DNA of 64,000 nt from Chloroflexales bacterium ZM16-3 (GTDB lineage Bacteria > Chloroflexota > Chloroflexia > Chloroflexales > Chloroflexaceae): the NCBI GenBank assembly GCA_004138175.2, contig RYFE02000005.1, positions 1 to 64,000 on the forward strand, given 5' to 3'. The notes under the pieces were generated by a model. The model was not told where the DNA came from. It worked only from the letters and a program-made list of their open reading frames with translations, and made no database searches. Below are positions 13,528-39,424 of the stretch, in pieces. Within the stretch, counting starts at the first letter, position 1. Each line of letters begins with the position of its first letter. Both the position numbers and the translations under genes were made by a program.

Positions 13528-13669
13528 CGCGCCCGCTCTATTAGGGCAGAGCTGTGGCGGGTATGTGCTCCAGGCTCCGGTGCCCGCGCTTGTCTGAGAT
13601 CGCTTCGCTATGGAAAATGCTCTACGTACCACAGCGATGTCGTCTGGGCTGAAGGGGACTTTTAAACGT

Positions 13670-20582: not shown

Positions 20583-20589
20583 CGTATCC

Positions 20590-23225: not shown

Positions 23226-25171
23226 GATGTGATCTCACAGAATACGCGCAGCTTAACCTCTGAGCTTAGCCAGAATACGTCACCCGACGCGAGCTGTTTG
23301 CGGTCGCCAGGGGCCATTGCCGCCTTCTCTGGGCCAAAAAAGGTGCCTTGGCTCGAATCACCTGCGATCAGGGTTGGCCCGCTGTTCAACAGTTCGATCC
23401 GTGCGTGATCGCGTGAGACTTGCTGATGTCGTAGTGGAATATCGGGCGTGCGCACGGTTGTCACGCGGCCAAGGTCGTAGTTGCGCTGGCTCTGCTTGAG
23501 CTCGATCCGCTGGGCCGTGTCGCCTGCCACCACCTCTACATACCAGCGCGTATGGCGCTCCAGAACTACGGTTCGCCGATCATGAGGGTCAAAGAGGGCT
23601 GTCCGTTCATCATCGGGTACCGCCAGGCGTCCGGTTACATCATCAGGGCTGTATGGTGCAGTTGCCTCATCGTCATTACTCGTGACGCGGGCCGTCATGT
23701 CATCATCGATCACAGGCGCAGGTGCCGCAGTCGGTCTTGGCTGCTGGCGGCGTCGCAACTGCCAGACGGCACCGGCTGCCCCGACCACAAGCACCACCCC
23801 TCCACCGATCATCAGCGGGAGAAACAGTCCGCTGAGACCCTGCGAGCTGGTTACGGCGGCAATCTCTATCTGCTGCGGCTGGCTACGGCTAACTTGATCC
23901 TGGGCATCCTTAACGGCGGCGATAAGCTCGTAGCTGCCCGATGGGAATCGCTGCTGAAATCCTGGGTCATTCGTGTCCAGCACATAGCGGAAGTCTGGCC
24001 CCTCGGTCACTGGGTCGGCGATGGGGAGCCCGTTGAGCAGATACTCGACCTGGGTGATCGGTGCCTGCTGGAAATCGACGCGGGTTGCCATCTGGACCGT
24101 GCCCTGGAACTCAGGGCTAGAGGTGATCAGGCTCACTACGGGCGGCAGCGCTGGGATATCGAGCGAGGCGGTCCCGTTGATAATTCCGACACTCACGGTG
24201 AGATTGGCTGGCCCCGACGCGATTCCCGTTGCGGAGAACCGCAGCGTTGTCATGTTGCTGCGGCGTAGCACGCTCGCGTACTGGTCGAATATCTGACGCT
24301 TGAGATCGGGGGAAGGCAGCTGTCCATCAACAACCACCGGTGTAACAGTGCCAACATCGGCCAGCGATTGAAGCCCCGTCAGCGCGGTCGGGTCACTCGC
24401 AAAGCCGTAGATCAGCAGATGGACGGGATGCCCTTTGGATTCTGCGGCGGCGAGCGCGTTGTGGATGGCGCTCGTATCGAACTCTTTATTGGGATCACCG
24501 GCGGCGAAGACAACAAGTGTGCGCGGCTGCTCCGGCGCAGCCTGATCCAGCCGCGACAGCGCCTGGATGATCGCTTCGTCAAGCGGGTATGGCCCAGCGC
24601 TGGATTCCTCAGTTGGCAACTGCGGATCAAACCGCACTTGAGGATTTGATCGGGTCAGCGTGTTCGCGATCGCTCCGAGGTCATTCGTCAACTCATGGGC
24701 GACCGTCACCGTCTCGGTGAGGATCATCAGCCCCGCGCGTTGATCAGCACTCTGGAGCTGACTCACAAGGTCGCTCACCATCGGCTGCATCAGCTGGAAA
24801 CGTGTTGCGTAGACGGCTCCGCGCTCGCCCATGCGGCTGCTCAGATCTGTCACCAGCATAACGGCACCAGGCACTTGGGTTTGCCGACGCTCAACACCGG
24901 GAACGGTCTTCCCCTCAAAGCTGACTACAAGGTCGGGCTGCGCCTGGGACGGAGACGGTGGAGCCTGTAGGGCGGCGAACTCAATGGTCGTCTCGATGGT
25001 GGGGAACTGTGAGAAATCAGTTCGTACAATGCGCAGTTGAGCGGTTCCCTGGGCCATGGCGCTAACCTGGGGAGATAGCAGTGTGCCGATGAGGATGGCA
25101 ACAAACAGCAGCAGCGCCCGATGGCTAGTGCGATGACGATGGACGTGTTTTGTTAGGGGAAGTTGTGACAT
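23222..25171 (-). CDS. VWA-TM-FHA protein (second copy)
   Basis: A 649-residue exported protein. An N-terminal hydrophobic segment (about 20-40) precedes a von Willebrand A-like domain with MLVTDLSSRMGERG where a MIDAS would be; the D-L-S-S-R variant keeps DxSxR-like oxygen ligands only partly. A membrane helix lies at about 445-468 (FLPLMIGGGVVLVVGAAGA), followed by an acidic, Thr-rich linker and a C-terminal FHA domain with VSRDHARIE and QGTFFG. The FHA part would be cytoplasmic and bind phosphothreonine. I start at ATG 25171, 8 bp after the previous stop with AGGA between; an upstream in-frame extension to 25309 overlaps that gene and looks non-coding. Confidence 0.85.
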   Translation of the reverse strand: MSQLPLTKHVHRHRTSHRALLLFVAILIGTLLSPQVSAMAQGTAQLRIVRTDFSQFPTIETTIEFAALQAPPSPSQAQPDLVVSFEGKTVPGVERRQTQVPGAVMLVTDLSSRMGERGAVYATRFQLMQPMVSDLVSQLQSADQRAGLMILTETVTVAHELTNDLGAIANTLTRSNPQVRFDPQLPTEESSAGPYPLDEAIIQALSRLDQAAPEQPRTLVVFAAGDPNKEFDTSAIHNALAAAESKGHPVHLLIYGFASDPTALTGLQSLADVGTVTPVVVDGQLPSPDLKRQIFDQYASVLRRSNMTTLRFSATGIASGPANLTVSVGIINGTASLDIPALPPVVSLITSSPEFQGTVQMATRVDFQQAPITQVEYLLNGLPIADPVTEGPDFRYVLDTNDPGFQQRFPSGSYELIAAVKDAQDQVSRSQPQQIEIAAVTSSQGLSGLFLPLMIGGGVVLVVGAAGAVWQLRRRQQPRPTAAPAPVIDDDMTARVTSNDDEATAPYSPDDVTGRLAVPDDERTALFDPHDRRTVVLERHTRWYVEVVAGDTAQRIELKQSQRNYDLGRVTTVRTPDIPLRHQQVSRDHARIELLNSGPTLIAGDSSQGTFFGPEKAAMAPGDRKQLASGDVFWLSSEVKLRVFCEITS

Positions 25172-25178
25172 TGGAGTC

Positions 25179-27428
25179 CTATGTCGTCTGTGGGATAATC
25201 TCGATCTCCGTATTCGGCCCGAGGCGAATCCTTGTCGGCCCATCCAGCACCTGTGGGGTTTGTGGTTCGATCTTGCGCTGGTTGATAAAAGTTCCGTGTC
25301 CACTGCCAAGATCGGTCAGGTTGAGCACGCCGTTGTGGAGGTTTAGCTCAATGTGTTTCCGCGACACCTGCTTGTCCCCGATGATCAGCAGATCCCCCGC
25401 GCGACCGATCGTACTTGGGAAGGAGGTCACCAGCTGTTCTGGTGGCAGATTGCCAGCCAGCGTGCGCAGCACCCGCACGCGGGCGCGGCTGACCTGAGCG
25501 GATGTCCGATTCCTTCCGCCTACGGAGGCGTCCTCTGAATCAAACCGCACCGTCAAGCCCTCCTTATCTACGACAGTTGTTGCCTTCTGTGGCGCAGAGG
25601 GGGCTGCGGGTGGAATCGGGGAGGCTGACGTATCGCGGATTGGGCGAGGTGCTGGGAGCGTGGTGGGCTTCGCCTTCTGCTGTTTGTAGTACACATAGGC
25701 GCTCCCTCCAGTAATGATCACGGCCAGAAGGATGAGCGCAATCATTGGCCACCGGTTGGGCCCCGCTGGTGGATTATAGGGGAATTGTCTTTCCGCTTTA
25801 GATGATGTCGCGCCAAGATCGAGGGTGAGCCGTAGCGTGTAATCACCAGCCGCACTATCTAGCAGTGCTTGCGGTAGATCTCGCACAATCTGTCGGTCTT
25901 CAGGCAGGGTAATCGGATCAAACTTCGCGATCTGGTTACCATTATGATCAATGATCTCACCACTAACCAATGGCTTGCTCTGTCCAATCCCCGTGATCTT
26001 CAGGCTCGTCAGCAGTTTGCCGGTATCGTATTTTGGTGTGACTTCAATGATCTCGAAGTTCACATTCGGCTTGTGGGTGATACATCTCTCGACGAGTAAT
26101 TCCGCCGTCTGGCCACTTATCGTCTCAGTTGGCTGCTTGATAGCAGACCCATCTGGCCCCCTCGCCCTGATGTTAAAGCAATATTCCTCACCAGGCGTAA
26201 ACTTATCTGCTGGGATAGAGATGGTCATTGGCAGGAGCGTGTCGAAGGTCTGGGTAATCGGGATCGAGATCGGATCAAGCAGGAGGCCACCGGTGCTCTT
26301 TTCGAGAACACTCACCTCGATCTTGGCGATTGTCTGGGGATTACTGATCTCTATCGGCAGCTGCCAGTGATCATCACTGTCACTATACCGAGGCTCGCGC
26401 ACAACAATGTTCGGCGCCGGGGCATAGTCGCGGCTAGAGCTGAAGGTGAAGGTTCCGGAGAGCATCTGCGCGAGTTTGTCGCTCGAAACCATAACCGTGC
26501 CACGGTTTTCGCCTTTAGCAGCGCTCACCCGTGCGCGAACCACCCACTGCGCATTGATACCGGCCATAATCGTCTTGAACTGCGCATCGATCTGGTTGAC
26601 ATCGCCGAAGGCAGGGAAGCCCATCGTGTTATTGGCCAGCGCTTTCAGGCTCTCCTGATCGACATTTGCGCAGTCAGCCGAATTACAGAGCCCAATGGTG
26701 TGAATAGGCGTGTGGTATTTCAGCGCCTCAGCCTCGACTGCCGCTTGGTCGAATGTGCTACAAGATTGGTTGTCATTGCCCGTCTCGTCACGCCCATCAG
26801 TAAACAGAATCATTGCCCGCCGATCATGCTTCTGGACAACCTGAACCTCCCGATTACCAAGCGCTTGGTAAGCGGCGTTGTAGAGGCATGTCATACCGCC
26901 TGGCTGTGCCTTAATGCCGCCGATCACCTGCTTGACCGTCTCGCGATTATCCTGATTGGCAATCAGTGGGGTGAATTGCTGCCCGAGGTCAACCTTGTTA
27001 AAGGCAAAGACACTGAATGCGGCCCCAGCCGGGGCGTCGTCAACCGACTTTTGGGCCGCCGCCAACACCCGCTCCATCGAGTCGATCATGCTCCCGCTGG
27101 TGTCGATCAGCAGAATCAGCGAGATAGGCGTTTTGGGGGTCTCGACCTTGGCCTGCTGCGGTGCGGTGCTTAGCCCGGTCTGCATCTGGATCTGCGCCGT
27201 TTCATTGATCGACGCAGTATCAGGCGGCACAAAGTGGCCCTGCCGGTCGCGCAGCGTGAAGTAGATATCCACATCCACGCCGTCGGCCTGCTCGGTGGCG
27301 ACCGTATTGATCGTCACGAGCGTCCAGTCGTTGCTCTGGGCGTTGATCTGGGGGGCGGAGGGGAGCAGCAGGCCAACGGCAATCAGGATCAGCATCCAGT
27401 AGGGGCGCATGGCTCTTCTCATGATCAT
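25179..27428 (-). CDS. VWA-TM-FHA protein (first copy)
   Basis: A 749-residue protein with signal peptide (about residues 8-30), a VWA domain with an intact MIDAS (LLIDTSGSMIDS near residue 105; FTDGRDETG further on), a beta-rich region, a membrane helix near residue 560 (MIALILLAVIITGGSAYVYY) and a C-terminal FHA domain (TIGRAGDLLIIGD, VSRKHIELN, GSGHGTFIN). The topology puts the adhesive VWA domain outside and the phosphopeptide-binding FHA inside. Start could be 27428, 27422 or 27410; none has a strong Shine-Dalgarno. Same plan as its downstream neighbour, so a duplicated pair. Confidence 0.88.
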   Translation of the reverse strand: MIMRRAMRPYWMLILIAVGLLLPSAPQINAQSNDWTLVTINTVATEQADGVDVDIYFTLRDRQGHFVPPDTASINETAQIQMQTGLSTAPQQAKVETPKTPISLILLIDTSGSMIDSMERVLAAAQKSVDDAPAGAAFSVFAFNKVDLGQQFTPLIANQDNRETVKQVIGGIKAQPGGMTCLYNAAYQALGNREVQVVQKHDRRAMILFTDGRDETGNDNQSCSTFDQAAVEAEALKYHTPIHTIGLCNSADCANVDQESLKALANNTMGFPAFGDVNQIDAQFKTIMAGINAQWVVRARVSAAKGENRGTVMVSSDKLAQMLSGTFTFSSSRDYAPAPNIVVREPRYSDSDDHWQLPIEISNPQTIAKIEVSVLEKSTGGLLLDPISIPITQTFDTLLPMTISIPADKFTPGEEYCFNIRARGPDGSAIKQPTETISGQTAELLVERCITHKPNVNFEIIEVTPKYDTGKLLTSLKITGIGQSKPLVSGEIIDHNGNQIAKFDPITLPEDRQIVRDLPQALLDSAAGDYTLRLTLDLGATSSKAERQFPYNPPAGPNRWPMIALILLAVIITGGSAYVYYKQQKAKPTTLPAPRPIRDTSASPIPPAAPSAPQKATTVVDKEGLTVRFDSEDASVGGRNRTSAQVSRARVRVLRTLAGNLPPEQLVTSFPSTIGRAGDLLIIGDKQVSRKHIELNLHNGVLNLTDLGSGHGTFINQRKIEPQTPQVLDGPTRIRLGPNTEIEIIPQTT

Positions 27429-27526: not shown

Positions 27527-28156
27527 TCATCCGTTGCGCTGAAGCACATGGAGCTGTATCTGGCTAAACTCCAGCACAATCATATCATTTGGCTGAATCT
27601 GGTGGCGACGGTTGCCGGTCAGCGGGATCTCACCGCCTGCGGTTCGCAGCACAACCGGGTTGTCAGCCAGGCACTCGAATACATATTTCCCGCCCTGGTA
27701 CGTGATCCGGGCGTGTCGCCGCGACACACGCTCGCTGTGCGGTAGTCCATTTAGGTTCACGGCTAGCAGCGCCTCGTCGGGCAGGTTCGAGTCCGAGCGG
27801 CCGATCAGGGCGGGGGACCAGTGAAGGGGAAAGACCTTCCCGCTCTTCGGCTCGCGCAGGTACAGCGGCGCGGGAAGCGCGGTGGCCTGTGGCGGGATCT
27901 GCGGGATACGCTCGGCGAGCACAACCCGTGTCTCGCTCCCTAGCTGCGACCCAATAGGCGTATCGTCAATCAGCGGTGTGCCATTGCCGCGCAATAGATG
28001 GTAGCCGCTTGGGTTAAGGCTCAGGTAAGGCAGGTCATCGCCAAACTCGGCGAGGATGGCGGCGATCAGCTCAACTGGCTTGAGCTTCGGCTGCACTTCC
28101 GCCGCCTCATCACCCTTGTCGAAGATATTGATTGTGAGCCTCTGATAGGCGCTCAT
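27527..28156 (-). CDS. Ubiquitin-like (YukD/EsaB-like) plus FHA protein
   Basis: A 209-residue soluble protein. Residues about 1-85 (LTINIFDKGDEAAEVQPKLK onward to SETRVVLAER) look like a beta-grasp, ubiquitin-like domain of the YukD/EsaB kind: strand, strand, helix, L-x-L-N-P-S-G-Y, then a T-P-I-G-x-x-L turn. Residues about 95-209 are an FHA domain with LIGRSDSNLP, VSRRHARITYQ and a C-terminal L-E-F-S strand. The start overlaps the ATPase stop (ATGA). EsaB in Firmicutes T7SS is a small ubiquitin-like protein and EssC carries FHA domains; here both functions seem fused in one protein. The beta-grasp call is inference by pattern. Confidence 0.75.
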   Translation of the reverse strand: MSAYQRLTINIFDKGDEAAEVQPKLKPVELIAAILAEFGDDLPYLSLNPSGYHLLRGNGTPLIDDTPIGSQLGSETRVVLAERIPQIPPQATALPAPLYLREPKSGKVFPLHWSPALIGRSDSNLPDEALLAVNLNGLPHSERVSRRHARITYQGGKYVFECLADNPVVLRTAGGEIPLTGNRRHQIQPNDMIVLEFSQIQLHVLQRNG

Positions 28157-31100
28157 AGTGTGCTCCCGTCCGTCTCACGGACACAGTCATTGAGAGTACG
28201 GAGAAGGTCTTCTTCATGAAAGCTGGCGATCACACTCTCTGGAAGGCTCGGGTTCAGCTGGCGCAAAATATTCGGTATAAGGGCTATCAGTGCCACTCTG
28301 CTGTTCCACTCGGCCTCGTCTACGCTGCCGATCTGCTCGGCCAGGACGACGTTTGTGGTCACGCCGGACTGATGCAGCTTGGCTTGGGCGGCACGCAACA
28401 CCTCTTGAATTTGGATCACCTTCGGATCTGGGGATGTGCTCGGTAGCTTCACCTCTCGCGGCGGGTGCCTCCCCGCGATCTGGGCCACCCAGGTATCCAT
28501 CGTGTCGGCGATCTGCTGATCCTCGTCCGCGAGCGGGTCGATCAGGTACGGTGTAGCGACCTGCACGAGGTTGGTCTGGCCGGATTTCACGATATAGCCA
28601 CGGCCCAGGGGCAGCTCGCGCCCTTCCAGCCCGGCGGGGATTCGCATGACCTTCAGCGGCCCCAGGGCCGCCGCTGTGCGTAGCCCAAGGCCATAGCCAG
28701 AGGACTGAATGCGCCGTCGCAGATCGCTGACGGAGCTCTCAGCACTGGCGGCAATCACGATATGCAGTCCGTCGCGGCCATAGCGACGCGCCAGGCGAGC
28801 CAGTCGCTTGGCGCGCTGCGAGTTGGTCTCAAGCTCTTCGCTGAACTCATCAAAGTTGTCGATGAGAATAAAGATCTGGTGCGTGCTGGTGGCCAGATTA
28901 GGACACTCGGCATCCAGCCAGTCAATCAGCGCAGCAAACTCATCAGGCTCACTGATGGACTGCACAATATGCGGCAGCTTGCGCATGCTCAGCGCGCCGC
29001 CATAGTCAAAGAATCGGCTCTGGAGATCGATCAGCACCATGCTGATCGCATCTGGCGTATAGTGATCCGCCAAGTTCAGCGCCCAGCTGCGCAGCGTCGT
29101 TGTTTTGCCACTCAGGGGCGGCCCGATGATCGTGAAGTGTGGGCCTGAGCGGCGCAGGTTGATTTTCGCTGGCAGAAGATCTCCGCCGATCCCCAGCGCA
29201 ATCACCGCCGGATCAGCCGCGTCAGGGGCAGCCAATGTCGCGAGGGCAATCTCGCGCTCAAGTGTCTCGATCGGGTGGGCTCGGGTCCCGGCGTCTGGAA
29301 GATCGGCGAAGACAGCGGCCATCCGATCACCGATCACACGCAATTCTGCGGGTTCCGGTCGGATCTGGCGCCCATCAGGCGTGTAAATACCGATGGGCTG
29401 CGCAGCTTGGAGCAGAAGCGGTCGCCCAGCCACGCGGATATACCCGCGGCCGGGGGTGTCATCCAGCTCGACGGCCCCACGCCCAACAATATCCATATAG
29501 CGTTCCGCATTGGTCTGGCGGAAAGTGATCCGCTCGGCGAACAGGCCGTAGAGCCGGCTCATCATACTGCCGGGTGTGTTACCCGTAACGATCAGGCTGA
29601 TGCCAACGCCGAGCGCCCTTCGCGTCAGCGGTATCAGGCTGATCTCGATCAGTGACTCGTAGCTCTCTTGGAGGCTGGCGATATTGTCGATCATTACGAT
29701 GATCGCGGGCAAGGGCTGGGGCTCGCGCTGGTTGTACTCCATAAATGACGCGGCATCAGCCTTGGAGATCTGCTGCTGCCGCGCGTCCGCCTCGCGGCTC
29801 AGGTAGTCGATGAGTCGCCGCAGCCGCTCATCAAACAGCTCTTCGTCGGACGACAGCACCGCGCCCACATGGGGAAATTCCTCCACGCTGCGGAAGCTGT
29901 GGCCCGACATATCGATCACAAAGAGGTGCAGCTCGTCGGGCCGATGTGTTGCGGTTAGCCCGGCGATAATGGTGCGCAGCAGATTGGTCTTTCCGCTACC
30001 GCCATCGCCAAAGATGGCCATGTGTGATCGCCCAAGATCAAGGACAAGCGGGTCCTGGCGCGCGTTCTCTGGGTCGTCTATCAGGCCAACCGTCGCGCGC
30101 AGGGCCGTATCATGCCAGTCTACGCCTGGCCAGAGATCGGCAGTCGCGCCAGTCAGCCAGGCCGAAAGCTCGGGGCGGAGCGTTCGCGTCCCGCGCACCT
30201 CCTGCTTGTCCCAGTCGGGAAGCATCGTCTCAAGGCTAAATACGGTCGGGAGCATGCTCGGCCAGGGGCGTCGCACCGGCGTATCGCCATTGACAGACAT
30301 GGCGACATCAACCGCGTAGCTAAAGAGCTTGGGTGCCTCTGGCTCGGCCACCTGCTGCGCGCGGCCCGGCCAGCGCACCGCCACGTTGTCGGGCAGCGGC
30401 ACACGATCACCGCAGTAGGCCACCTGCACCAGCTCGATCCGCTCGCCACTGCCCTGAAGGAATCCCCGGCCGGGGAGCCCGCTCGGCAGACGGGCGGCAT
30501 CAGGGCGGCGCAGCAGCTCTCGGCTCGTGTCCGCATCCTCAACCCTGAGGCAGAGCCGCAGCTTGATGTTTGCCCGCATCTGGTCGGAGACCCCCTTGGG
30601 GCGCTGCGAAGCAAGGAGCAGATGAACCCCTTGCGCACGACCAACCCGCGTGATGCTCTCAAGCTGGAGCCGGTAGTCGGGGTTGCTGTCGATCATCTCG
30701 GCGTACTCATCAATGATGATCACCAGATGGGGGTATGGCTGGGCATGGTGGAATCCGCGCTTGCGGTAGTCCACAATATCCTTGGTGCCCGTGTCCGCAT
30801 TGAGCTGCTGGCGGCGGCGGATCTCGGCGCTAATTGCGCTGAACATGCGGTGAACCGCGCTGGTGTTCAGGTTGGTCACGATCTCGACACAGTGCGGCAG
30901 AGTCTCGAAGGGCTTAAAGGCACCGCCGCCCTTGTAGTCAACCAGCACAAAGTTCAGGATGGTTGGCGGGTAGACCAGAGCAAGTCCGATGATAAAGGTC
31001 ATCAGCAATTCGGACTTACCCGAGCCGGTGCCGCCGGCGACCATGCCATGCACCCCGTCTTTTTGGGCTTCCAGCGTCAGTTCACGCGGCAGGTTGCCGG

Positions 31101-34100
31101 AGGCAATGCCGAGTGGCACGCTGAGCCATTCGGGGCTGTTCGCCTGCACCTGCCAACTCTGGATGACTGCAGTATGCAGCTGTCCGGCGAAGGTTGTTGT
31201 ATCGGGTGAGATGGCAAAGCGCGTGGCCAGCACCTCACGGTAGAACACCGCTTTGGGCAATGCGCTGAGCCGCATCGGCATGGTGAATCGGAGACCCTGT
31301 TCGCCAATCACCGTGCGCATTCGTGCGCCGATTATGTCGATCTTGGTCTTCTCATCCTGGTCAGATCCGGGTGCCGGGGGCAGTAGCGCCACCTGGAAGG
31401 CCAACGCCTGCCGATCAATCGCCGTCGTTCCACGTCCCGGCAGATCATCGATCAGCTCCACCCGGCTCCCAACGATAGCCGCATAGTCATCGGCGTCAGA
31501 TAGGCGAAGGGCCATGCGCTCGGAGAAGAGCCCATAGAGCTTGCTGGAGATCGTGTTCAGACGATTGGCGGTGATGACGATATGCAGGCCGTAGGTCTTG
31601 CCCTGACGCGCCAGCGTGATGAACTGGTTGAGCGGGTTATCTTCGTCGTCATTCCCTTGGCGCTGGCTGAAGGAGTCGATAAACTCGGCGAGCGTGTCCA
31701 CTACCAGCACAATGGCAGGCAGCGGCTCGTGCGGGAAGCGGGCGTTATACTCATTCAGGTTCTGCGCGCCGATACCGCCGAAGCGCATTTTCCGCTCGTT
31801 GAGCGTCGCCGTCAGCTCACGCCAGAGCAGCTGCACCTGCTCCTCGTAGCCGCCTTCGTCTGGCACAATCACGGTGCCCACATGCGGCAGTGCGGTCAGC
31901 ATCTGGAGGCTGCGCCCGCCAAGATCGAGCAGATGGATGTGCAGCGCCTCGGGCGGATGGGTGGCCGCGAGGCTGAGGACCAGCGTGCGAATGAAGCTCG
32001 TCTTGCCCGTGCCCGAGGCACCGAACAGCACGGCGTGGCCGCGATTCAGGTTTACGGTGAGCGGCAACTGCTGCGCGCCCTGTGGATTATCTACCAGGCC
32101 GACCACCGGCTGGAGCGTGTTGGCACCCCAGATGAGCGTATCCCAGCGCCCACCGTTATACATCCAGGTGGCCAATTCCGGCACCAACACCACCCCGTCA
32201 TCCTTCCGGCGGGCCAGCATCGTCTGCGCTGCGCTCGGCAGGTCGGTGGCGCTGAACGGGTCGAAGGTCAGCGTTGGCGGCAGCGCTGGCGGCCACGGCG
32301 CGGCGGGCCGCTCGGCACCGTTCGCCCGCAGGAGGTTCTCCGTGGTGCGCACCACCACCTCGAAGAAGCGTGGCGGCTCACCGCGCTCGGTCAGCGGCTG
32401 GTTTGGCACCTTCTCGCCGGTGTACGCCACCTGAATCAGCTCGATCTGCTCATTGCCCACCTGGAGGTAGCCGCGCCCAGGCATGCCGCTCGGCAGGAAG
32501 GCTGCGTCGGGGCGACGCAGCATCTCGCGGCTGGTGTCAACACCCTCCACCCGCAGACAGATCCGCAGCTTGATATTCGCGCGCATCTGGTCGGTCACGC
32601 CAACGGGGCGCTGGGCGGCGAGCAAGAGGTTGACACCTAGCGAGCGCCCGATCCGCGTGATCCGATCCAGCTCGTCGCGGAAGTCTGGGCTGTCGCTGAT
32701 CATCTCGGCGTACTCGTCGATAATGATAAACAGGTGCGGGATCGGCCCGCTGTTGGGGCCATTGTTCAGATGGAGCCCTTTGGTGCGGTACTCCACCACA
32801 TCCTTCACCTGATGAAACCCGAGCACCCTGGCGCGACGATCCATCTCTGCGCCGATGGCGGTGAACATGCGGCGCACGGCGGTCTTATTCAGGTTCGTGA
32901 CCAAATCGACCACGTGCGGCAACGTGTGGAATGGCTCAAAGGCACCGCCGCCCTTGTAGTCAACCAGCACAAAGTTGAGCACGGTGGGGTCATAGCGCAT
33001 CGCCAAGCTGACGATCAGCGACATCAGCAGCTCGGACTTCCCGGAGCCGGTGCCGCCCGCGATCATCCCGTGAACGCCGTCCTTCGCCGCCTCCAGGGCC
33101 AGCGTGCGAATCTTATTGCCGGAGGTCACGCCGATCGCTGCGCTGAGCCAATCGGCGCGCTCAGGCTTTATGCTCGCCTCCCAGCCGTCGATGATCAGCC
33201 GGGCCAGCTTACTGCGGATCTCCGCATCGTCGCGTTCGTTCGTGCGGGCGAGGAGCGTGCGCAGGAGCATTGTCTTCGGCAGTGCCTCAATCTCGATCGG
33301 CAGCTGCGCTTTGCGTGTGGCGGGCCATGCCTGCACGGCGGCACGCAGCCGTGAGGTGAACAGCTCGATCACGGCGGCATCGGTGGTAGCAACCTGGATG
33401 CTCAGCGGGATCTGGTCGATCAGGCTATAGCCGCGACCGGGCAGATCGGCCACTTCGGCAACGTGTGAACCGAGCACATCGCGATAGTGGGAGGAGTCTG
33501 TTAAACGCAGGGCAAAGCGCTCGGTGAGGAATCCCGCAAGCTGGTTCGGAACCTGCATCGGTTGGCCGGCGGTGATCACCAGATGGACGCCGTACGGTCG
33601 GCACTGGCGAGCCAACGCAATCAGTCGATCAAGCCCACTCTCGGCGTTCTCTACCTGCCCGCCGAACGTCTCGACAAACTCAGTCAGGTTATCCAGCGCC
33701 AGCACAATTGCTGGCAGCGCCTTATCCGCATACCTGGCATTGTAGGAAAGCAGCGTATCTTCACGGGCATCGCCAAGCACTACCTTGCGCTGCTCGACGA
33801 TATCGCTAATCTCGCGGAGCAGCTGCTCGACGCGCTCACGATAACTGGCCTCAGCCTCATTTGGCGTAATGACGGCACCAACATGGGGGAGCTGGGACAA
33901 GGGCATCAGCGAGCGACCTCCGAGGTCGAGCACATACATGTGTAGCTGATCCGGCGGGTGCGAGGCGGCCAGGCTCGTCACAAGCGTGCGGATAAAGGTC
34001 GTCTTCCCCGAGCCTGGTGCCCCGTAGATCACGGTGTGTCCACGAGCAAGATCGACGGACAAGGGGTACTGACGCGCCGCAGCAGGCGCATCCACGAGAC

Positions 34101-36768
34101 CGACAACAGGCCGAAGCGCATAGTCCTCCCAAAGCAACGGCTGATCCCACCCGCTACCATCGGTCAGCCAGTGTACCATCGGCGGGCTGAGGCTGAGGGA
34201 GGCATCAGGCGCATGCCCGAGGGTGAGCAGCTCTTGGCGGTCGAGGTAGATCGCGGAGGTGATAGGGGCAATGCCTGGCCCACGAGACTCCGTCAGCGGG
34301 TCGGTGAGCGCCAGCTTTGTCGGCAGCGGGCCGGGCCAGGGGGCGCGCTGCGGAACGACGCCGCGCGAATCGGCCAGAGCGCGCAGCGCCTCGATCACCT
34401 CAAGAAACACCGGGCGGGAGGGCAGTTCGGCGGGGGCAATGTTAGACGTAGCATGGCGTCCCCACAGCACCGGCGGCAGGTTCCGCTGACCAGCTGGCAC
34501 ATACAGCTCGCCGGCGTAGGCCACCTGAATCAGCTCGATCTCCTCATTGCCCACCTGAAGGTAGCCGCGCCCTGGGATATTGTTCGGCAGGTACGCGGCC
34601 TCGGTGCGGCGGAGCATCTCGCGGCTCTCACCCTGGCTCTCGACTCGCAGACAGATGCGGTATTTGATATTTGAGCGCATCTGGTCAGTCACACCGCTCG
34701 GGCGCTGGGCGGCCAGCAAGAGATGGACGCCGAGGGAGCGTCCGATCCGGGTAATCTGCTCAAGCTGGCTCTTCGCATCCGCCCGGTCGGCGATCATCTC
34801 GGCAAACTCATCAATGACAATGAAGAGGAACGGGTATGGTATCTGGGTGATGTGGAGGTTGCGTTTACGATACTCGACGATCGTATTCACTTTGGCGCTG
34901 GCATTGAGGCGCTGGCGGCGGTCAAGTTCGGCGCGGATGGAGGTAAACATCCGCGTGACCGCATCGCCGTTCAGGTTGGTCACAATATCGACGCAGTGCG
35001 GCAGGTTGCGAAACGACTCGAAAGCACCACCGCCCTTAAAGTCCACCAGCACAAAATTCAGCGCGGTTGGGCTGTAGCTGGCGGCCATTCCGGCGATCAG
35101 TGCGATCAGCAGCTCGGATTTACCCGAGCCGGTGCTACCGGCAACCAGCCCATGGACACCGTCGCGGTTTGCCGAGAAGTTCAGGGCACGATCTTTATTC
35201 CCAGCCATCCGCCCGATCTTCGCCCGCAGCCATGAGGCGTTGCCCGCCTGCTCGCTCTTACTCCAAGCAGCTTGCGCATCTTTGACAAAGCCCTCGATTG
35301 TCGCATCGCTGCTAGATGTACCGTCATTGCTCCGCATCAGCTCCAGAAACGAGACGCTCTTCGCCAGGCCACTGCCCTCGGTCTGCTGGAGCTTGAGTCC
35401 CGCCATAGCTGTGGCCAACTCGGTCATCTGATTCCCATCGCGGATCGTGTCGGCGTTTCCGAGCAGACGCAGCGAATTTAGCCCAACCTCGGCATAGCGA
35501 AGGACTGTCTGGTCACCAGCCCGCTCAACCTCAATAAGCGCAGTACAGCCGCCGGGTGCCTTGCTTCGCCGAGGGACAAGGAACAGAACCGCTGCGCCAA
35601 GGATCGCCCCCTCCGCAATCAGAATCCCCAGACCGGCATCAGTCAGCGCGATGCTATGGAGTGGGTGTTTCGGATCGTTAGCGGCGGCAAGCAGATCGAT
35701 CACAACCAGCAGTTGTGGCAGAGTCGGGTTCTCACCTGCCTGCTGCTCTGGGTCCTGAAGCCGAATCTTCCGCTGGGCCAGCACTCGTCGTAGACCTTCC
35801 GACCAGCGATCTAACGCGGTCCCTTGCTCCGGGTCAGACGACAGCTCATCTTTCGGATCATCAAGGAATACGATAGCGGTACTATCCTCGCCATTGCTCG
35901 CATGGGGAAGTTGTCGAACCCATGCCCAGTCTGCACGGTGGTCTGCCACGAGGAGGATTCGCATGTCAGAGGGCGCATGGAAGGCGGCGACGTGAGCGAT
36001 CATCGCGCGGGCCAGATCAGTAGCGGGGCCGGGATCTCCCGCAATTGCGAGCGCATGAGAAAAATGAGGTGGGGGCGGGCCCTTCACCTCTTCATCGTCC
36101 TCGGGCTTCGGCGGCGCGGGGCGGAGCATCACCGTCACCGGCATCGCGCTGACAAATTGCGAGTCTGCCGCAAGCTTAAGTGCATCACGTCGCAGCTGGC
36201 TGTTGCCATCAGATTCGGTAAGCGTGTAGACAACGGTTGATGGTAGCGTCGCAACCCCAAGGCGCACCATGCCAAAGTCGGGGTCGCCGACCCGCCGCTC
36301 CCAGAGGCGCACCACATCTGCTGCGGTGCCTGACGGCTTGCGCGCCACGGCCTGTGCGTGCCGCACCAGCGCAGCGGTGCCATCAGGGTCAGGGTAGTTG
36401 TACTGGGCAAAGCGGCGCTGAGCTTCCTGGGCCGCGCGCATATCGCGGTAGAGATCGAGCAGCTGACTGGCGTAGGCATCCCGCTCAGCAGCACGCTCAA
36501 CCTCTTCGCCACGGTAGGTGTAGATCGCAAATGCCGTTGACGCGATCACCGAGAGCGCCATTGGGATGAGCAATAAGGGGCTACGCCCGCTGCCACCAAG
36601 CGACGAGACCAGGATATACCCGATGATCGTCGTCAGCGGGAGCGCCACCTGCACCAGTCGACTCGTTGTGACCGCACGCTGATCTGGTGGCTTGGGGATC
36701 TCAATGCTACCGAACGGGAGGTCGGGCTGTATGCGTGGCGGGCGATCAGAGGCTATCTGGTTACTCAT
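28153..36768 (-). CDS. Giant FtsK/SpoIIIE-type ATPase, EssC/EccC-like, seven P-loop domains
   Basis: A 2,871-residue motor protein, about twice the usual EssC/EccC length. Two membrane helices lie at about 40-58 and 64-84. Walker A motifs are near residues 543 (GSTGSGKSE), 914 (GAPGSGKTT), 1236 (GGTGSGKSE), 1581 (GASGTGKTS), 1909 (GGTGSGKSE), 2252 (GDGGSGKTN) and 2547 (GPPLSGKTT). Domains 1, 3 and 5 are full FtsK-like copies with VDFKGGGAFE or VDYKGGGAF, a VIDEFAEM/IIDEYAEM Walker B, and AAQRP or ASQRP. Domains 2, 4, 6 and 7 lack the catalytic Glu (ALDNLTEF, VVDTLAEF, MIDNIASL, LIDNFDEF). Thus three active/degenerate pairs plus one terminal degenerate domain. It should drive export of the WXG100 proteins upstream. 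The start overlaps the pseudokinase stop (ATGA). Confidence 0.93.
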   Translation of the reverse strand: MSNQIASDRPPRIQPDLPFGSIEIPKPPDQRAVTTSRLVQVALPLTTIIGYILVSSLGGSGRSPLLLIPMALSVIASTAFAIYTYRGEEVERAAERDAYASQLLDLYRDMRAAQEAQRRFAQYNYPDPDGTAALVRHAQAVARKPSGTAADVVRLWERRVGDPDFGMVRLGVATLPSTVVYTLTESDGNSQLRRDALKLAADSQFVSAMPVTVMLRPAPPKPEDDEEVKGPPPPHFSHALAIAGDPGPATDLARAMIAHVAAFHAPSDMRILLVADHRADWAWVRQLPHASNGEDSTAIVFLDDPKDELSSDPEQGTALDRWSEGLRRVLAQRKIRLQDPEQQAGENPTLPQLLVVIDLLAAANDPKHPLHSIALTDAGLGILIAEGAILGAAVLFLVPRRSKAPGGCTALIEVERAGDQTVLRYAEVGLNSLRLLGNADTIRDGNQMTELATAMAGLKLQQTEGSGLAKSVSFLELMRSNDGTSSSDATIEGFVKDAQAAWSKSEQAGNASWLRAKIGRMAGNKDRALNFSANRDGVHGLVAGSTGSGKSELLIALIAGMAASYSPTALNFVLVDFKGGGAFESFRNLPHCVDIVTNLNGDAVTRMFTSIRAELDRRQRLNASAKVNTIVEYRKRNLHITQIPYPFLFIVIDEFAEMIADRADAKSQLEQITRIGRSLGVHLLLAAQRPSGVTDQMRSNIKYRICLRVESQGESREMLRRTEAAYLPNNIPGRGYLQVGNEEIELIQVAYAGELYVPAGQRNLPPVLWGRHATSNIAPAELPSRPVFLEVIEALRALADSRGVVPQRAPWPGPLPTKLALTDPLTESRGPGIAPITSAIYLDRQELLTLGHAPDASLSLSPPMVHWLTDGSGWDQPLLWEDYALRPVVGLVDAPAAARQYPLSVDLARGHTVIYGAPGSGKTTFIRTLVTSLAASHPPDQLHMYVLDLGGRSLMPLSQLPHVGAVITPNEAEASYRERVEQLLREISDIVEQRKVVLGDAREDTLLSYNARYADKALPAIVLALDNLTEFVETFGGQVENAESGLDRLIALARQCRPYGVHLVITAGQPMQVPNQLAGFLTERFALRLTDSSHYRDVLGSHVAEVADLPGRGYSLIDQIPLSIQVATTDAAVIELFTSRLRAAVQAWPATRKAQLPIEIEALPKTMLLRTLLARTNERDDAEIRSKLARLIIDGWEASIKPERADWLSAAIGVTSGNKIRTLALEAAKDGVHGMIAGGTGSGKSELLMSLIVSLAMRYDPTVLNFVLVDYKGGGAFEPFHTLPHVVDLVTNLNKTAVRRMFTAIGAEMDRRARVLGFHQVKDVVEYRTKGLHLNNGPNSGPIPHLFIIIDEYAEMISDSPDFRDELDRITRIGRSLGVNLLLAAQRPVGVTDQMRANIKLRICLRVEGVDTSREMLRRPDAAFLPSGMPGRGYLQVGNEQIELIQVAYTGEKVPNQPLTERGEPPRFFEVVVRTTENLLRANGAERPAAPWPPALPPTLTFDPFSATDLPSAAQTMLARRKDDGVVLVPELATWMYNGGRWDTLIWGANTLQPVVGLVDNPQGAQQLPLTVNLNRGHAVLFGASGTGKTSFIRTLVLSLAATHPPEALHIHLLDLGGRSLQMLTALPHVGTVIVPDEGGYEEQVQLLWRELTATLNERKMRFGGIGAQNLNEYNARFPHEPLPAIVLVVDTLAEFIDSFSQRQGNDDEDNPLNQFITLARQGKTYGLHIVITANRLNTISSKLYGLFSERMALRLSDADDYAAIVGSRVELIDDLPGRGTTAIDRQALAFQVALLPPAPGSDQDEKTKIDIIGARMRTVIGEQGLRFTMPMRLSALPKAVFYREVLATRFAISPDTTTFAGQLHTAVIQSWQVQANSPEWLSVPLGIASGNLPRELTLEAQKDGVHGMVAGGTGSGKSELLMTFIIGLALVYPPTILNFVLVDYKGGGAFKPFETLPHCVEIVTNLNTSAVHRMFSAISAEIRRRQQLNADTGTKDIVDYRKRGFHHAQPYPHLVIIIDEYAEMIDSNPDYRLQLESITRVGRAQGVHLLLASQRPKGVSDQMRANIKLRLCLRVEDADTSRELLRRPDAARLPSGLPGRGFLQGSGERIELVQVAYCGDRVPLPDNVAVRWPGRAQQVAEPEAPKLFSYAVDVAMSVNGDTPVRRPWPSMLPTVFSLETMLPDWDKQEVRGTRTLRPELSAWLTGATADLWPGVDWHDTALRATVGLIDDPENARQDPLVLDLGRSHMAIFGDGGSGKTNLLRTIIAGLTATHRPDELHLFVIDMSGHSFRSVEEFPHVGAVLSSDEELFDERLRRLIDYLSREADARQQQISKADAASFMEYNQREPQPLPAIIVMIDNIASLQESYESLIEISLIPLTRRALGVGISLIVTGNTPGSMMSRLYGLFAERITFRQTNAERYMDIVGRGAVELDDTPGRGYIRVAGRPLLLQAAQPIGIYTPDGRQIRPEPAELRVIGDRMAAVFADLPDAGTRAHPIETLEREIALATLAAPDAADPAVIALGIGGDLLPAKINLRRSGPHFTIIGPPLSGKTTTLRSWALNLADHYTPDAISMVLIDLQSRFFDYGGALSMRKLPHIVQSISEPDEFAALIDWLDAECPNLATSTHQIFILIDNFDEFSEELETNSQRAKRLARLARRYGRDGLHIVIAASAESSVSDLRRRIQSSGYGLGLRTAAALGPLKVMRIPAGLEGRELPLGRGYIVKSGQTNLVQVATPYLIDPLADEDQQIADTMDTWVAQIAGRHPPREVKLPSTSPDPKVIQIQEVLRAAQAKLHQSGVTTNVVLAEQIGSVDEAEWNSRVALIALIPNILRQLNPSLPESVIASFHEEDLLRTLNDCVRETDGSTL

Positions 36769-37901
36769 ACGAAGATTTCACGAACTGACAAGAGTAAGGC
36801 TATCAGGAAGGCAACGAGCAGTACAATTGCCGCAATGCGAAAGATTCGTGCTGGTGGGGGCCAACGGCTCGGGCGGACGACCGGGGTCATGCCAATCTCA
36901 GTTCCCTTGATCTCATCGACGATAGCCCGTGCGTCGATCGGGCGAGCCGACGGGTTGCGGGCGAGCATCTGGAGCGCGAGATTGGCAATCGGCTGGACAT
37001 CCGCGCGCATGAGCGGAGTGACCTGGCCAGCGATGATTCGCTGATAGATCGGCTCTGCGGAGATCTGGTTGCGGGAAAAGGGGGGCGTGCTAGCCAACAG
37101 CTCGTACAACACGAGGCCAAGTCCGTAGACATCCGTCTGTGTACCCGCGCCGACCCCGCCACCTACACGCGTGGGGCTTGCGAGTTCCGGCGCAGTACCA
37201 CCTGGGCGAACCGCGTCCCGGTACCAGTGTTCAACATAGGTGCGGTTATCGGTTGTTTGGCGCAAGGTCGTCGCCAACCCGAGATCCACCAGCGTCACGC
37301 GGGGAACACCCTGATCACCCGCAAAGTGGACAAGCACACTCTCTGGCCCAAGAGCGAGGTGAAGATGCTGTGCGCCATGCACAAGCGCAATCGCAGAAGC
37401 CAGCTCAATAGTGATCCAGCCGATGTGATCGATCCATAGCTGCGGGTGCTTCTTCAGCACATCCTGGAGCGGCTCGCCTGGGATATGAGCAAAGAGGGTA
37501 TAGGTCACGAGCTGGTCGCTAAGCATTGCCCGACCTACAAGGCGCGCCTGTGCATTGGCTCGTGTGTAGGGCGATACGAGCGTGGGGAGGACAGGGCGTT
37601 GGTTTGCGGTGGACTGAAGCTTCTGGAGCAACTCAGCCTCACGAATCAGCCGATGCTCGTTATCTTGGCCGGGGTGGGCCACTTTAAGAAACACCCGCTG
37701 CTGAAGGTGAATGGCCTCATAGATCACGGCGGAGCGCAGCACCACGAGCGGGCGAACGACCTCAACATCGCCGAGGCGGTCTCCATATGCGAGCACCATC
37801 GGTGCACGTTCAGCCTGACAGAACGGCTCCTGACAGAAGAGTGCACAGGATGGAGCAGTGCGATCACAGAGCAAACAGACCCGATCCACAAGATTCTCCA
37901 T
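36765..37901 (-). CDS. Membrane-anchored pseudokinase, EssB/YukC-like in plan
   Basis: A 378-residue kinase-fold protein. The N-terminus has a cysteine cluster (Cys 9, 12, 19, 23, 28) that may bind zinc. The kinase fold keeps the VFLKVAHP lysine and LVDLGLAT (DFG as DLG), but the catalytic loop is HLHLALGPESVL: the HRD aspartate and the following lysine are gone, so phosphotransfer is unlikely. A C-terminal helix at about 352-370 (IFRIAAIVLLVAFLIALLL) anchors it with almost nothing outside. Firmicute EssB/YukC is also a pseudokinase with one membrane helix, and sits beside EssC; position and plan agree here, though sequence homology to EssB cannot be shown by eye. Overlaps the ATPase start. 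Confidence 0.85.
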   Translation of the reverse strand: MENLVDRVCLLCDRTAPSCALFCQEPFCQAERAPMVLAYGDRLGDVEVVRPLVVLRSAVIYEAIHLQQRVFLKVAHPGQDNEHRLIREAELLQKLQSTANQRPVLPTLVSPYTRANAQARLVGRAMLSDQLVTYTLFAHIPGEPLQDVLKKHPQLWIDHIGWITIELASAIALVHGAQHLHLALGPESVLVHFAGDQGVPRVTLVDLGLATTLRQTTDNRTYVEHWYRDAVRPGGTAPELASPTRVGGGVGAGTQTDVYGLGLVLYELLASTPPFSRNQISAEPIYQRIIAGQVTPLMRADVQPIANLALQMLARNPSARPIDARAIVDEIKGTEIGMTPVVRPSRWPPPARIFRIAAIVLLVAFLIALLLSVREIFV

Positions 37902-38049: not shown

Positions 38050-38349
38050 TTAATGAAAACGCGCCGCACCGAGCTCATCGCCGCGCTCAAACGCATCGAC
38101 TGAAGCGGTGAGATCCTGGCTGATCTCGCCACACTTCTCTGCCACATTCTCGATATATGGCTTGACCGTATCGATGAAGTAGGCCACGGCGGCCCCACCG
38201 ACTGCACCAATGAATGCCGTTGCCTTGAGCACGTTGCTCAGCGCAGTGAGCACTTTGACGACCTGCGTCAAGGTCTCACTGATCTGAGAGAACTTTTTTG
38301 AGAAATCCCTGACCACAGGGACATCCATGTAGACGCCATCCACAGCCAT
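38050..38349 (-). CDS. WXG100-size protein with central hydrophobic helix
   Basis: A 99-residue helical protein in the WXG100 array: MAVDGVYMDVPVVRDFSKKF, heptad-like helix SQISETLTQVVKVLTALSNV, then FIGAVGGAAVAYFIDTVKPY, and a charged C-terminal helix. The W-x-G turn is absent; a hydrophobic IGAVGGAAVAYF segment sits where the turn would be. It is therefore a divergent Esx-like protein or a membrane-active relative. GAGGAG precedes the ATG. The last gene of the array before the stem-loop. Confidence 0.65.
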   Translation of the reverse strand: MAVDGVYMDVPVVRDFSKKFSQISETLTQVVKVLTALSNVLKATAFIGAVGGAAVAYFIDTVKPYIENVAEKCGEISQDLTASVDAFERGDELGAARFH

Positions 38350-38409
38350 AAACGCTCCTCTCTTCGATTGACGATACTGGGTAAGATCCGGTGCGTTGGT
38401 GGACTATGC

Positions 38410-38748
38410 CTAGTAGAAGCTAAAGGCGTCGAACAGCCGGGACTTCACCAAGCGCTCAACTTCTTCATCGGCTCGCTCAATCACGTCGCGGGCATACTCT
38501 AGGTTCGTGCAGGTCGTAGAGATATGATTCTGGATGGTGGTGACATTCGGAATCAAAAGGGAAGAGACTTCCTCGACAAACGCGTCAGCGCCTTTGCCTT
38601 GCCAAGCCCCGCCGACAACCTGCTGAATCATCGCCTTCAGCGGGTTCATGGCTGCCTGCTCAACCGTATTCAGCTGATCCGTCAGGCCTTTTAGCACGCT
38701 ATCCAACACTGCCCGCGCCAAGCGGAGCAGAATTTCCGTTACGGACAT
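38410..38748 (-). CDS. WXG100 (ESAT-6-like) protein
   Basis: A 112-residue helical hairpin protein with the hallmark turn GGAWQGKGADAFVEEV (W-Q-G) at about residues 47-62. WXG100 proteins are exported as dimers by type VII systems and serve as substrates and co-export partners. A C-terminal region with DVIERADEEVERLVKSRLF carries a possible YxxxD/E-like export signal variant only loosely. AGAGGAG lies before the ATG. Flanked by two further family-size genes on the same strand. Confidence 0.85.
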   Translation of the reverse strand: MSVTEILLRLARAVLDSVLKGLTDQLNTVEQAAMNPLKAMIQQVVGGAWQGKGADAFVEEVSSLLIPNVTTIQNHISTTCTNLEYARDVIERADEEVERLVKSRLFDAFSFY

Positions 38749-38779
38749 AGTGGCACTCCTCTGCTACTACGCATACCTG

Positions 38780-39082
38780 CTAACTGCCGAACTGGCTACG
38801 AGAGGTGTCATCGGCCTCACGCATGTACTCCACCGCAGCCTTGACATCCTCTTCCAGCTCCTGAAACTTCTCGATCAGCTTGCTCAGCGACGGAGTAAGC
38901 TTGCTGCGGATTGCATCCACAAAAGCAGTGCCACCGCGTCCGAGCAGCGCACCCTCTTCCATCATATTAGCGATGCTCTGCATCTCCTGCACCACATCCT
39001 GTAGATCCTCGCCGCCCTGATGGAATGTCCTGGACATCTGCTCGGCCAGGCCATAGTCTAGTTTGATCTCGTCATGTGCCAT
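38780..39082 (-). CDS. WXG100-like protein, LxG variant
   Basis: A 100-residue protein with WXG100 layout: two amphipathic helices around EGALLGRGGTAFVDAI, where the Trp of WxG is Leu (L-L-G). The C-terminal YMREADDTSRSQFGS resembles the Y-x-x-x-D type VII export signal (Y86-M-R-E-A-D). GGAG precedes the ATG. By size, sequence plan and position it belongs with the proteins encoded on either side. Confidence 0.8.
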   Translation of the reverse strand: MAHDEIKLDYGLAEQMSRTFHQGGEDLQDVVQEMQSIANMMEEGALLGRGGTAFVDAIRSKLTPSLSKLIEKFQELEEDVKAAVEYMREADDTSRSQFGS

Positions 39083-39124
39083 CGTTATCGCTCCAGGTAG
39101 CCCCGGCGAGCGCCGGAATGCAGC

Positions 39125-39424
39125 TTAATTGCGGAACCGAGAGCTCGCCTCTTCTTCGGCGTGCTTCATCTTCTGTACGATCTCGCGCACCGTTCGGCTC
39201 GCCTCTTCGAGTACCTCGTGCAGCCGATGGGCGGCCGGGAGCACTTCACTATTCATCTCTGCGAAGAAGCTATCGGCACCACGACCGAGCCACCCGCCAT
39301 CTTCGAGTGGGCCCATACTGCGCTGAACCTGCTGGAGTGTGTGTCTGGCAGCATGCGATTGATTGGCGAACCGGCTTGCAATTTGCTCGAGCTGATCATA
39401 ATCAGCCCGAATTTCTTCAGCCAC
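39125..39424 (-). CDS. WXG100 (ESAT-6-like) protein, first gene of the run
   Basis: A 99-residue protein with the canonical turn GGWLGRGADSFFAEM (W-L-G) at about residues 43-57 between two helices, and a charged C-terminus HAEEEASSRFRN. The start is a GTG at 39424 with AGGAGG at 39435-39430, 5 nt upstream; an ATG 2 bp upstream is out of frame. It is closest to its neighbour at 38780 in the C-terminal region (E-E-A/DD-T-S-S/R-R-F). The likely first gene of the 20-kb run. Confidence 0.85.
   Translation of the reverse strand: MAEEIRADYDQLEQIASRFANQSHAARHTLQQVQRSMGPLEDGGWLGRGADSFFAEMNSEVLPAAHRLHEVLEEASRTVREIVQKMKHAEEEASSRFRN

Follow-up and report, generated by a model that had tools for sequence, protein, structure and literature searches.

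A pseudokinase encoded between WXG100 and EssC-like genes in Chloroflexota, a candidate structural subunit of type VII secretion

The first 64,000 nucleotides of contig RYFE02000005.1 from Chloroflexales bacterium ZM16-3 (this whole stretch is called the window below) contain a gene cluster with four WXG100 genes and a gene for an EssC-like ATPase, and between them lies the gene of a membrane pseudokinase, here named PSK. By its linkage to WXG100 genes and to an EssC/EccC-type ATPase gene, PSK is a component of a type VII secretion system (T7SS). With a probability that we put at roughly 0.55, it would be a structural pseudokinase subunit of the Chloroflexota T7SS, an adaptor that docks FHA domains carried in trans and that was recruited from a Ser/Thr kinase independently of EssB, the pseudokinase of the Bacillota system. 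In the sections covered of the literature searched, no paper on a PSK-type system was found, and only WXG100 sequences are mentioned for Chloroflexi or Chloroflexota. If this reading holds, the T7SS architecture reaches into Chloroflexota, where it has a defined gene set, and PSK would be a second T7SS pseudokinase subunit, one that still resembles its kinase parents.

The PSK family and its conserved residues

The initial annotation had placed a kinase-fold open reading frame (ORF) here that overlaps the EssC-like gene, and this was borne out: the ORF is on the minus strand, and shares 4 nt (36765-36768) with that of the EssC-like ATPase. A protein search at E<=1e-20 found orthologues of PSK in 17 of 150 genomes of the class, and 12 of these 17 sequences were aligned (alignment A1). 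Scanning a species-genome collection with A1 gave 80 loci. For 32 of them (L048-L079) the match reaches E 2e-49 or better and the identity is 33-45 %; these were taken as the PSK family, whereas the next locus, at 2e-13, is an ordinary kinase; the 48 loci beyond this gap, with E 2e-13 or weaker, were left aside as ordinary kinases. As judged from these matches, the PSK orthologues are a sharply bounded Chloroflexota family of 32 loci. The record titles of 30 of them name Chloroflexota groups (Herpetosiphon, Chloroflexales, Anaerolineae, Ardenticatenaceae, Thermoflexus and others). One contig, L064, is titled Melainabacteria; its cluster equals that of the Chloroflexi-titled L067 in every gene, down to coordinates and scores, and it is probably a misassigned bin. 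Conservation was read from a second alignment (A2) of 29 sequences, i.e. the window and 28 of the 32 loci, with the near-copies L053, L054, L067 and L073 omitted.

The Pfam kinase model PF00069 (Pkinase) matches all 29 members at E<=10 (best 1.6e-19), and the window PSK, at 4.3e-14, is above the cut-off. The residues C9, C12, C23, C28, K73, E88, H181, D206, G208 and D257 are invariant in A2. The features of an active kinase that PSK fails are the HRD Asp, the loop Asn and the Gly-rich loop. The loop HLHLALGPESVL (residues 179-190) stands where kinases have HRDxKxxN; the position of the HRD Asp is occupied by G in 17, A in 8, N in 3 and C in 1 of the sequences, the loop Asn position (188) holds Asn in none of the 28 residues listed for the 29 rows, and the Gly-rich loop is without any Gly in 27 of 29. 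Hence the loss of the catalytic Asp and the retention of DLG, both claimed by the initial annotation, hold throughout the family, but the claim of a kept VAIK-type motif stands for its invariant Lys only, the Ala position (residue 71) being taken by F, L, Y or M in all but one of the 29 sequences. In protein kinases the Lys-Glu pair anchors the nucleotide and the DFG-type Asp binds metal. Because no aligned PSK has lost any of these three residues, and none has the HRD Asp, the anchoring residues appear to be under selection while catalysis has been lost. The adenine pocket is probably narrowed; for binding of ATP, the invariant Lys, Glu and Asp speak in favour, and the bulky residue at the VAIK Ala position and the lost Gly-rich loop speak against. 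PSK might still be an enzyme, with unusual catalysis or some other transfer chemistry on the kinase fold, and the invariance of K73, E88, D206 and G208 would suit this; yet with no HRD Asp in any member, no loop Asn seen, the Gly-rich loop gone in 27 of 29 and the VAIK Ala bulky in 28 of 29, we consider it very improbable.

The first 28 residues of PSK carry five Cys (C9, C12, C19, C23 and C28), as had been noted, but C19 is not conserved, the position being Cys in only one of the 29 sequences, and therefore the true motif is one of four Cys, CxxC-x10-CxxxxC. This N-terminus is zinc-ribbon-like and may bind a metal. At the other end of the protein, the single C-terminal membrane helix proposed earlier was recovered as the only strong hydrophobic stretch (residues 353-371), and a C-terminal helix is present in all 32 orthologues; the tail that follows it has 0-10 residues in 30 of them (7 in the window), the remaining two having tails of 22 and 30.

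Linkage to type VII secretion genes

On the minus strand of the window the gene order is the four WXG100 genes (39424 to 38050), PSK, the EssC-like ATPase, UbFHA, VWA1, VWA2, STK2, PP2C and a TPR protein (end 19488), as listed in Table 1. PSK adjoins the EssC gene in 30 of the 32 loci and WXG100-4 in 29, and lies exactly between both in 27, which argues that it is a T7SS component. The exceptions are L058 and L075, where another WXG100-type ORF is beside PSK, and L072, where UbFHA intervenes. Its orientation is with EssC in 11 loci and against EssC in 19, and two loci lack a nearby EssC; that PSK keeps its place while its orientation flips speaks strongly for a functional link. The gene overlap is therefore real in the window but is not a family trait, and the interpretation of the PSK-EssC overlap as a general operon of the essB-essC kind was ruled out, since PSK runs opposite to EssC in 19 of the 30 loci where an EssC is near. 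In a sample of 301 Chloroflexota genomes, PSK proper (E<=1e-100) was found in 10, all of them among the 63 genomes with WXG100 matches; this count leaves aside 22 of the 32 matching genomes, whose matches (E 1e-25 to 1e-30) fall mainly in the C-lobe region.

Table 1. Features of the PSK cluster in the window
Feature	Coordinates	Strand	Evidence or remark
WXG100 paralogue 1, best WXG100 match	39125..39424	-	TIGR03930 72 bits
WXG100 paralogue 2	38780..39082	-	
WXG100 paralogue 3	38410..38748	-	
WXG100 paralogue 4, adjoins PSK	38050..38349	-	
PSK, pseudokinase of the cluster, 378 aa	36765..37901	-	ORF; Pfam Pkinase 4.3e-14; 32-locus family; alignment A2
PSK N-terminal four-Cys motif CxxC-x10-CxxxxC, residues 9-28	37818..37877	-	C9, C12, C23, C28 in 29/29
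PSK kinase-fold domain, residues 37-339	36885..37793	-	AlphaFold2 model; Foldseek; VIA-align
PSK K73, VAIK-type lysine (VFLK, Phe for Ala)	37683..37685	-	K in 29/29; residue 71 bulky in 28/29
PSK catalytic loop HLHLALGPESVL, residues 179-190, without catalytic Asp and Asn	37332..37367	-	HRD-Asp position never D (29 sequences)
PSK DLG, residues 206-208, metal-binding motif retained	37278..37286	-	D206 and G208 in 29/29
PSK C-terminal membrane helix, residues 353-371	36789..36845	-	Hydropathy 3.03; C-terminal helix in 32/32 orthologues
EssC-like ATPase, 2871 aa, seven FtsK/SpoIIIE domains	28153..36768	-	TIGR03928 1429.6 bits (cut-off 778.4); PF01580 seven stretches; seven Walker A motifs
UbFHA, EsaB/YukD-like ubiquitin-like domain fused to FHA domain	27527..28156	-	YukD PF08817; FHA; model; hhalign to EsaB
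VWA1, von Willebrand A (VWA) domain, membrane helix, C-terminal FHA	25179..27428	-	
VWA2, weak VWA match, membrane helix, C-terminal FHA	23222..25309	-	Start is that of longest ORF, overlaps VWA1
STK2, Ser/Thr kinase, catalytic Asp and Asn (HHDIAPTN), DFA for DFG, one membrane helix 352-370	21960..23225	-	Pfam Pkinase 9.1e-23
PP2C phosphatase with membrane helix	20590..21939	-	NF033484 1.5e-39 (below cut-off); PF13672
TPR-containing protein, last gene of the module, N-terminal hydrophobic segment 10-28	19488..20597	-	PF14559 0.001 (below cut-off)

Three loci from the family or order of the window (L163-L165) carry WXG100 genes, an EssC of normal size (~1500 aa), an FHA membrane protein, a kinase with intact HRD and a PP2C phosphatase, with no PSK. 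We call these clusters Chloroflexus- and Roseiflexus-like, the genus names being those that we presume from kinship. Since this cluster type does without PSK, the phylum has two or more types of T7SS, and PSK is the mark of one of them.

Fold and descent of PSK

The AlphaFold2 model of PSK, built from 12 sequences, has a kinase fold, with a mean predicted local distance difference test (pLDDT) score of 75.5 and ~50 in the Cys region. Foldseek ranks PknA and PknB first (E 1e-12), and VIA-align scores the four best PknB chains at Z 24.4-24.8 and CLK kinases at Z 25-26, with a root mean square deviation of 2.6-3.1 over ~250-280 residues. The model establishes the predicted fold and says nothing of function. 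In profile searches of the PDB the best match of PSK was likewise PknB, at 3.7e-23, with 2562 sequences at E<=10, the best 60 of which were listed. PknA/PknB-type Ser/Thr kinases are thus the best matches in both sequence and fold, although, unlike PSK, they are active and have an intact HRD. PknB has no four-Cys N-terminus, and it has an extracellular part of PASTA domains.

A first tree of kinases had 60 rows; L072_STK, L123_STK, L127_STK and L120_STK were dropped from the second for a long branch or odd composition, and five cluster kinases were added. In the tree of 61 rows, with 19 of the 29 PSK rows used, PSK forms one group with support 100/99, which is joined at 99/98 by six STK2 sequences and a zinc-ribbon kinase from locus L060, with STK2 as sister at 94/76. 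The L060 kinase comes from the same kind of cluster, has HLDVKPAN and DFG, and has its own CxxC-x10-CxxC N-terminus. On these sequence comparisons the nearest relatives of PSK are ordinary bacterial Ser/Thr kinases, probably including the kinase of the same cluster, and an origin from a cluster-linked kinase is likely.

Comparison with EssB/YukC

The kinase-like fold of EssB is already known from crystal structures (PMC9600267, in the part consulted). Like PSK, EssB/YukC of the Bacillota system (T7SSb) is a membrane pseudokinase with one helix, is encoded beside EssC and is probably an FHA-binding hub. The initial annotation had accordingly proposed that PSK has the position and topology of EssB, which is right in so far as it lies beside EssC in 30 of 32 loci and has one helix, but not in the rest: the helix is C-terminal, and the extracellular C-terminal domain of EssB is absent. 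PSK further differs by its four-Cys N-terminus and by retaining Lys, Glu and DLG, whereas EssB has lost all three motifs (LDMR/Ytfvlapd/TRG, in the portion available of PMC12599244).

The proposed homology to EssB/YukC beyond a shared kinase fold did not hold up in any of the sequence tests. The YukC/EssB model PF10140 matches none of the 29 PSK members at E<=10 (the L. fermentum EssB control gave 1.2e-61), and none of the 301 Chloroflexota genomes (the B. subtilis control was positive). A profile-profile comparison by hhalign of the PSK family with EssB, the latter represented by only three sequences, yielded a probability of 0.1 % and P 0.51. These three came from a Limosilactobacillus plasmid (L. 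fermentum), Enterococcus sp. and E. faecalis, and the alignment was limited to them because no usable EssB was found in Clostridia (none of 196 genomes above the cut-off, two weak C-terminal matches) or in viral contigs (none). The EssB profile retrieved from the PDB only YukC/EssB chains plus one Hsc70 at E 1.3, and no kinase. The best 50 Foldseek and VIA-align matches of the PSK model are kinases only; EssB is not among them, which is no evidence of a difference. A closer match to active Ser/Thr kinases with no EssB signal, named beforehand as an outcome that speaks against homology, is thus what the sequences gave. EssB orthology of PSK was ruled out by sequence tests only (PF10140, hhalign and PDB profiles), without a direct structural superposition.

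One might still suppose that PSK is a true but very diverged EssB homologue, one ancestral T7SS pseudokinase having been inherited by Bacillota and Chloroflexota, with EssB later losing all sequence similarity and gaining its extracellular domain. The two share system and neighbour (in the L. fermentum plasmid, too, EssB comes directly before EssC and overlaps it), both are one-helix pseudokinases, and both systems have FHA and EsaB-like partners. The negative result is also weakened by the EssB alignment of only three sequences. Yet no sequence signal appeared in any direction, though EsaB was found with even fewer sequences: the ATPase exceeds the EssC cut-off and the EsaB link was made by hhalign, so that ATPase and EsaB are recognisable across the phyla, as common inheritance would have it, and EssB is not. 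In addition, PSK lacks the extracellular domain, the motifs lost differ between the two proteins, EssB is absent from the 301 genomes and PSK is much closer to PknB-type kinases. We therefore regard such homology as distinctly unlikely; PSK most likely works like EssB yet is not an EssB. Models of two other T7SSb components, EssA and EsaA (PF10661 and TIGR03929), have no match in the genome of the window, and both match in B. subtilis.

Proposed role of PSK

In Bacillota, the pseudokinase EssB binds FHA domains that belong to EssC. The pseudokinase domain of B. subtilis YukC, which does not bind ATP, binds the FHA region of YukB, apparently without phosphorylation (PMC9600267, as far as consulted), and the contact was confirmed by cryo-electron microscopy (Oka et al. 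2025, as told in an excerpt of PMC13037476). In the cluster studied here the first membrane helix of the EssC-like ATPase is already at residue 38, therefore it has no N-terminal FHA domains, and the FHA domains are found on UbFHA, VWA1 and VWA2. UbFHA unites in one chain the EsaB-like and the FHA domain, both of which are near the pseudokinase in Bacillota. Among 21 UbFHA orthologues, YukD (PF08817) was matched in 7 (best E 1.5e-4) and FHA in all 21. The comparison by hhalign with only two EsaB sequences gave P 6e-4 with 58 columns in register, at a probability of only 28 %. The model of UbFHA (pLDDT 95.4) has an FHA fold at residues ~95-209 with Z 11.5-14, and its structural matches include the FHA domain of FhaA solved with the intracellular domain of Rv3910 (MviN). 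The residues of the phosphothreonine (pThr) site are kept, i.e. G119, R120, S145 and R146 in 21/21 and N166 in 20/21, whereas the FHA domains of T7SSb are without a pThr site according to the sections seen of PMC11217815.

Given an EssC without N-terminal FHA domains and an FHA domain with a conserved pThr site fused to an EsaB-like domain, we propose that PSK docks UbFHA. The kinase-fold domain would face the cytoplasm, tail-anchored by the C-terminal helix, and would serve as a docking surface rather than phosphorylate. It would bind FHA domains carried in trans, UbFHA first of all, and would thereby keep UbFHA next to the membrane base of EssC. Since the pThr signature of UbFHA is intact and STK2 and PP2C are encoded in the cluster, phosphorylation, either of PSK or of a different subunit, may still switch the docking. 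PSK would have arisen independently of EssB, from a Ser/Thr kinase of the ordinary bacterial type that probably had a link to this cluster beforehand.

The same surroundings could point to a regulator, PSK being an allosteric partner or phosphorylated substrate of STK2 through which the secretion system is turned on or off, much as MviN acts once PknB has phosphorylated it and FhaA has bound. A kinase, a phosphatase and three FHA proteins in the cluster, the conserved pThr-site residues of UbFHA and the MviN-FhaA precedent (PMC12599244, portion available) would all agree with this. However, PSK is beside EssC and WXG100, with STK2 ~14 kb away in the window, and its segment from DLG to APE has one widely conserved Thr/Ser, at 236 (24/29, next to APE), position 211 being mixed. 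A purely regulatory PSK seems to us unlikely, though not far-fetched.

Several observations weigh against the structural adaptor role or parts of it. The FHA partner of PSK is suggested by analogy and gene order, and in most loci UbFHA is on the far side of EssC, not beside PSK. The invariant K73, E88 and D206 hint at binding of a nucleotide or metal, which a pure scaffold does not need. The near-copies L073 and L074 have PSK and the WXG100 quartet with no EssC nearby, and 53 of the 63 WXG100-positive genomes among the 301 are without PSK, which is thus not universal in the T7SSs of Chloroflexota. As to descent, approximately unbiased (AU) tests reject neither a grouping of PSK with the L060 zinc-ribbon kinase alone (p 0.61, with a likelihood better than that of the free tree) nor one with Chloroflexus-type cluster kinases (p 0.39), long branches being involved; placing STK2 with the Chloroflexus-like cluster kinases was not rejected either (p 0.35). 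Because these tests allow other placements, we claim only a probable origin from a cluster-linked kinase, not descent from STK2.

A wider and more tentative idea is that on two or more occasions T7SSs have converted protein kinases into structural pseudokinase adaptors, with an intermediate stage kept in Chloroflexota; we take this to be possible but doubtful. If true, the intermediate would unite in one cluster a pseudokinase, a kinase paralogue that has its catalytic residues, a phosphatase and an EsaB-like subunit whose FHA domain is pThr-competent, and the phosphorylation-independent EssB-FHA contact of Bacillota would be the frozen end of a once phosphorylation-dependent kinase-FHA switch. 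EssB has diverged too far to tell the path from kinase to subunit, but PSK, with a related kinase and an FHA domain in trans, makes the question testable, both as to the phosphorylation dependence of docking and as to whether pseudokinase-FHA contacts have arisen once or more often.

Related systems

Garrett et al. 2024 describe the systems T7SSc-T7SSj in Bacillota and Actinomycetota (PMC11217815, sections consulted), and words in Chloroflex- do not occur in the main text of their paper. The closest published parallel to PSK, by description, is TshM of T7SSh: in the sections seen of that account it is possibly homologous to kinases, has one helix, at the C-terminus, and lacks an extracellular domain, and the T7SSh ATPase is, like EssC here, without N-terminal FHA domains. 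The authors call the kinase homology of TshM only potential. Unlike PSK, TshM, which we compared by description only, is found in certain Bacillota, next to genes of a Tad pilus and together with an EspG-like chaperone, TshG. T7SSc, with TscD, TscE and TscF, has a membrane kinase, a vWA protein, a PPM phosphatase and an FHA-less ATPase, in likeness to STK2, VWA1/VWA2, PP2C and the ATPase here; TscD, however, has an intact active site and continues past the helix with a C-terminal region, and T7SSc as described there has one WXG100 protein and no separate pseudokinase. The gene set reported here equals no system in the sections consulted of the T7SSc-T7SSj account.

Outside type VII secretion, the MviN (Rv3910) pseudokinase of M. 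tuberculosis (ActPs3) recruits an FHA protein, FhaA, as is proposed for PSK (PMC12599244, portion available). On the other hand, MviN belongs to the peptidoglycan pathway, and has its own motifs and activation-loop deletions. The CP1 pseudokinases have a linked COG3899 domain and no membrane region (PMC12599244, same portion), and PSK, a single domain with a helix, fails both. In the part available of that work, none of the seven pseudokinase-rich families is described in Chloroflexota.

Other genes of the cluster

The EssC-like ATPase has the look of three copies of its first two ATPase domains followed by the last one. Seven Walker A motifs were also found in 18 complete EssC orthologues of the L048-L079 loci, and four further orthologues of similar length have 5-6 by a strict pattern; the EssC proteins of L071, L076 and L079 (1418-1551 aa) have only three. 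No report of an EssC with seven FtsK domains was found in the literature searched. In L073 and L074 the other side of PSK is occupied by an ORF (812-867 aa) that carries two Walker A motifs.

The four WXG100 paralogues are distinct and in fixed order (38050-39424 in the window), and the full quartet is present in 30 of the 32 PSK loci; L058 shows one member, and L069 is cut by the contig end. ORFs of ~330-450 aa with an N-terminal WXG100 domain occur near or away from the clusters (L035 15663-17000, L058 7427-8425 and L075 5942-7270), and by this domain are candidate substrates. Six genomes of a Herpetosiphon-like family have at least 17 WXG100 places each.

STK2 keeps HxD and Asn in the window and in L043, L045, L046 and L066, with D[FL]A in place of DFG; in L047 the motif is DLG. 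Elsewhere in the window, 13610-16372 encodes a Ser/Thr kinase (HRDIKPQN) with a large C-terminal domain, and the product of 17766-19484, two genes further along, resembles, by eye, that domain alone.

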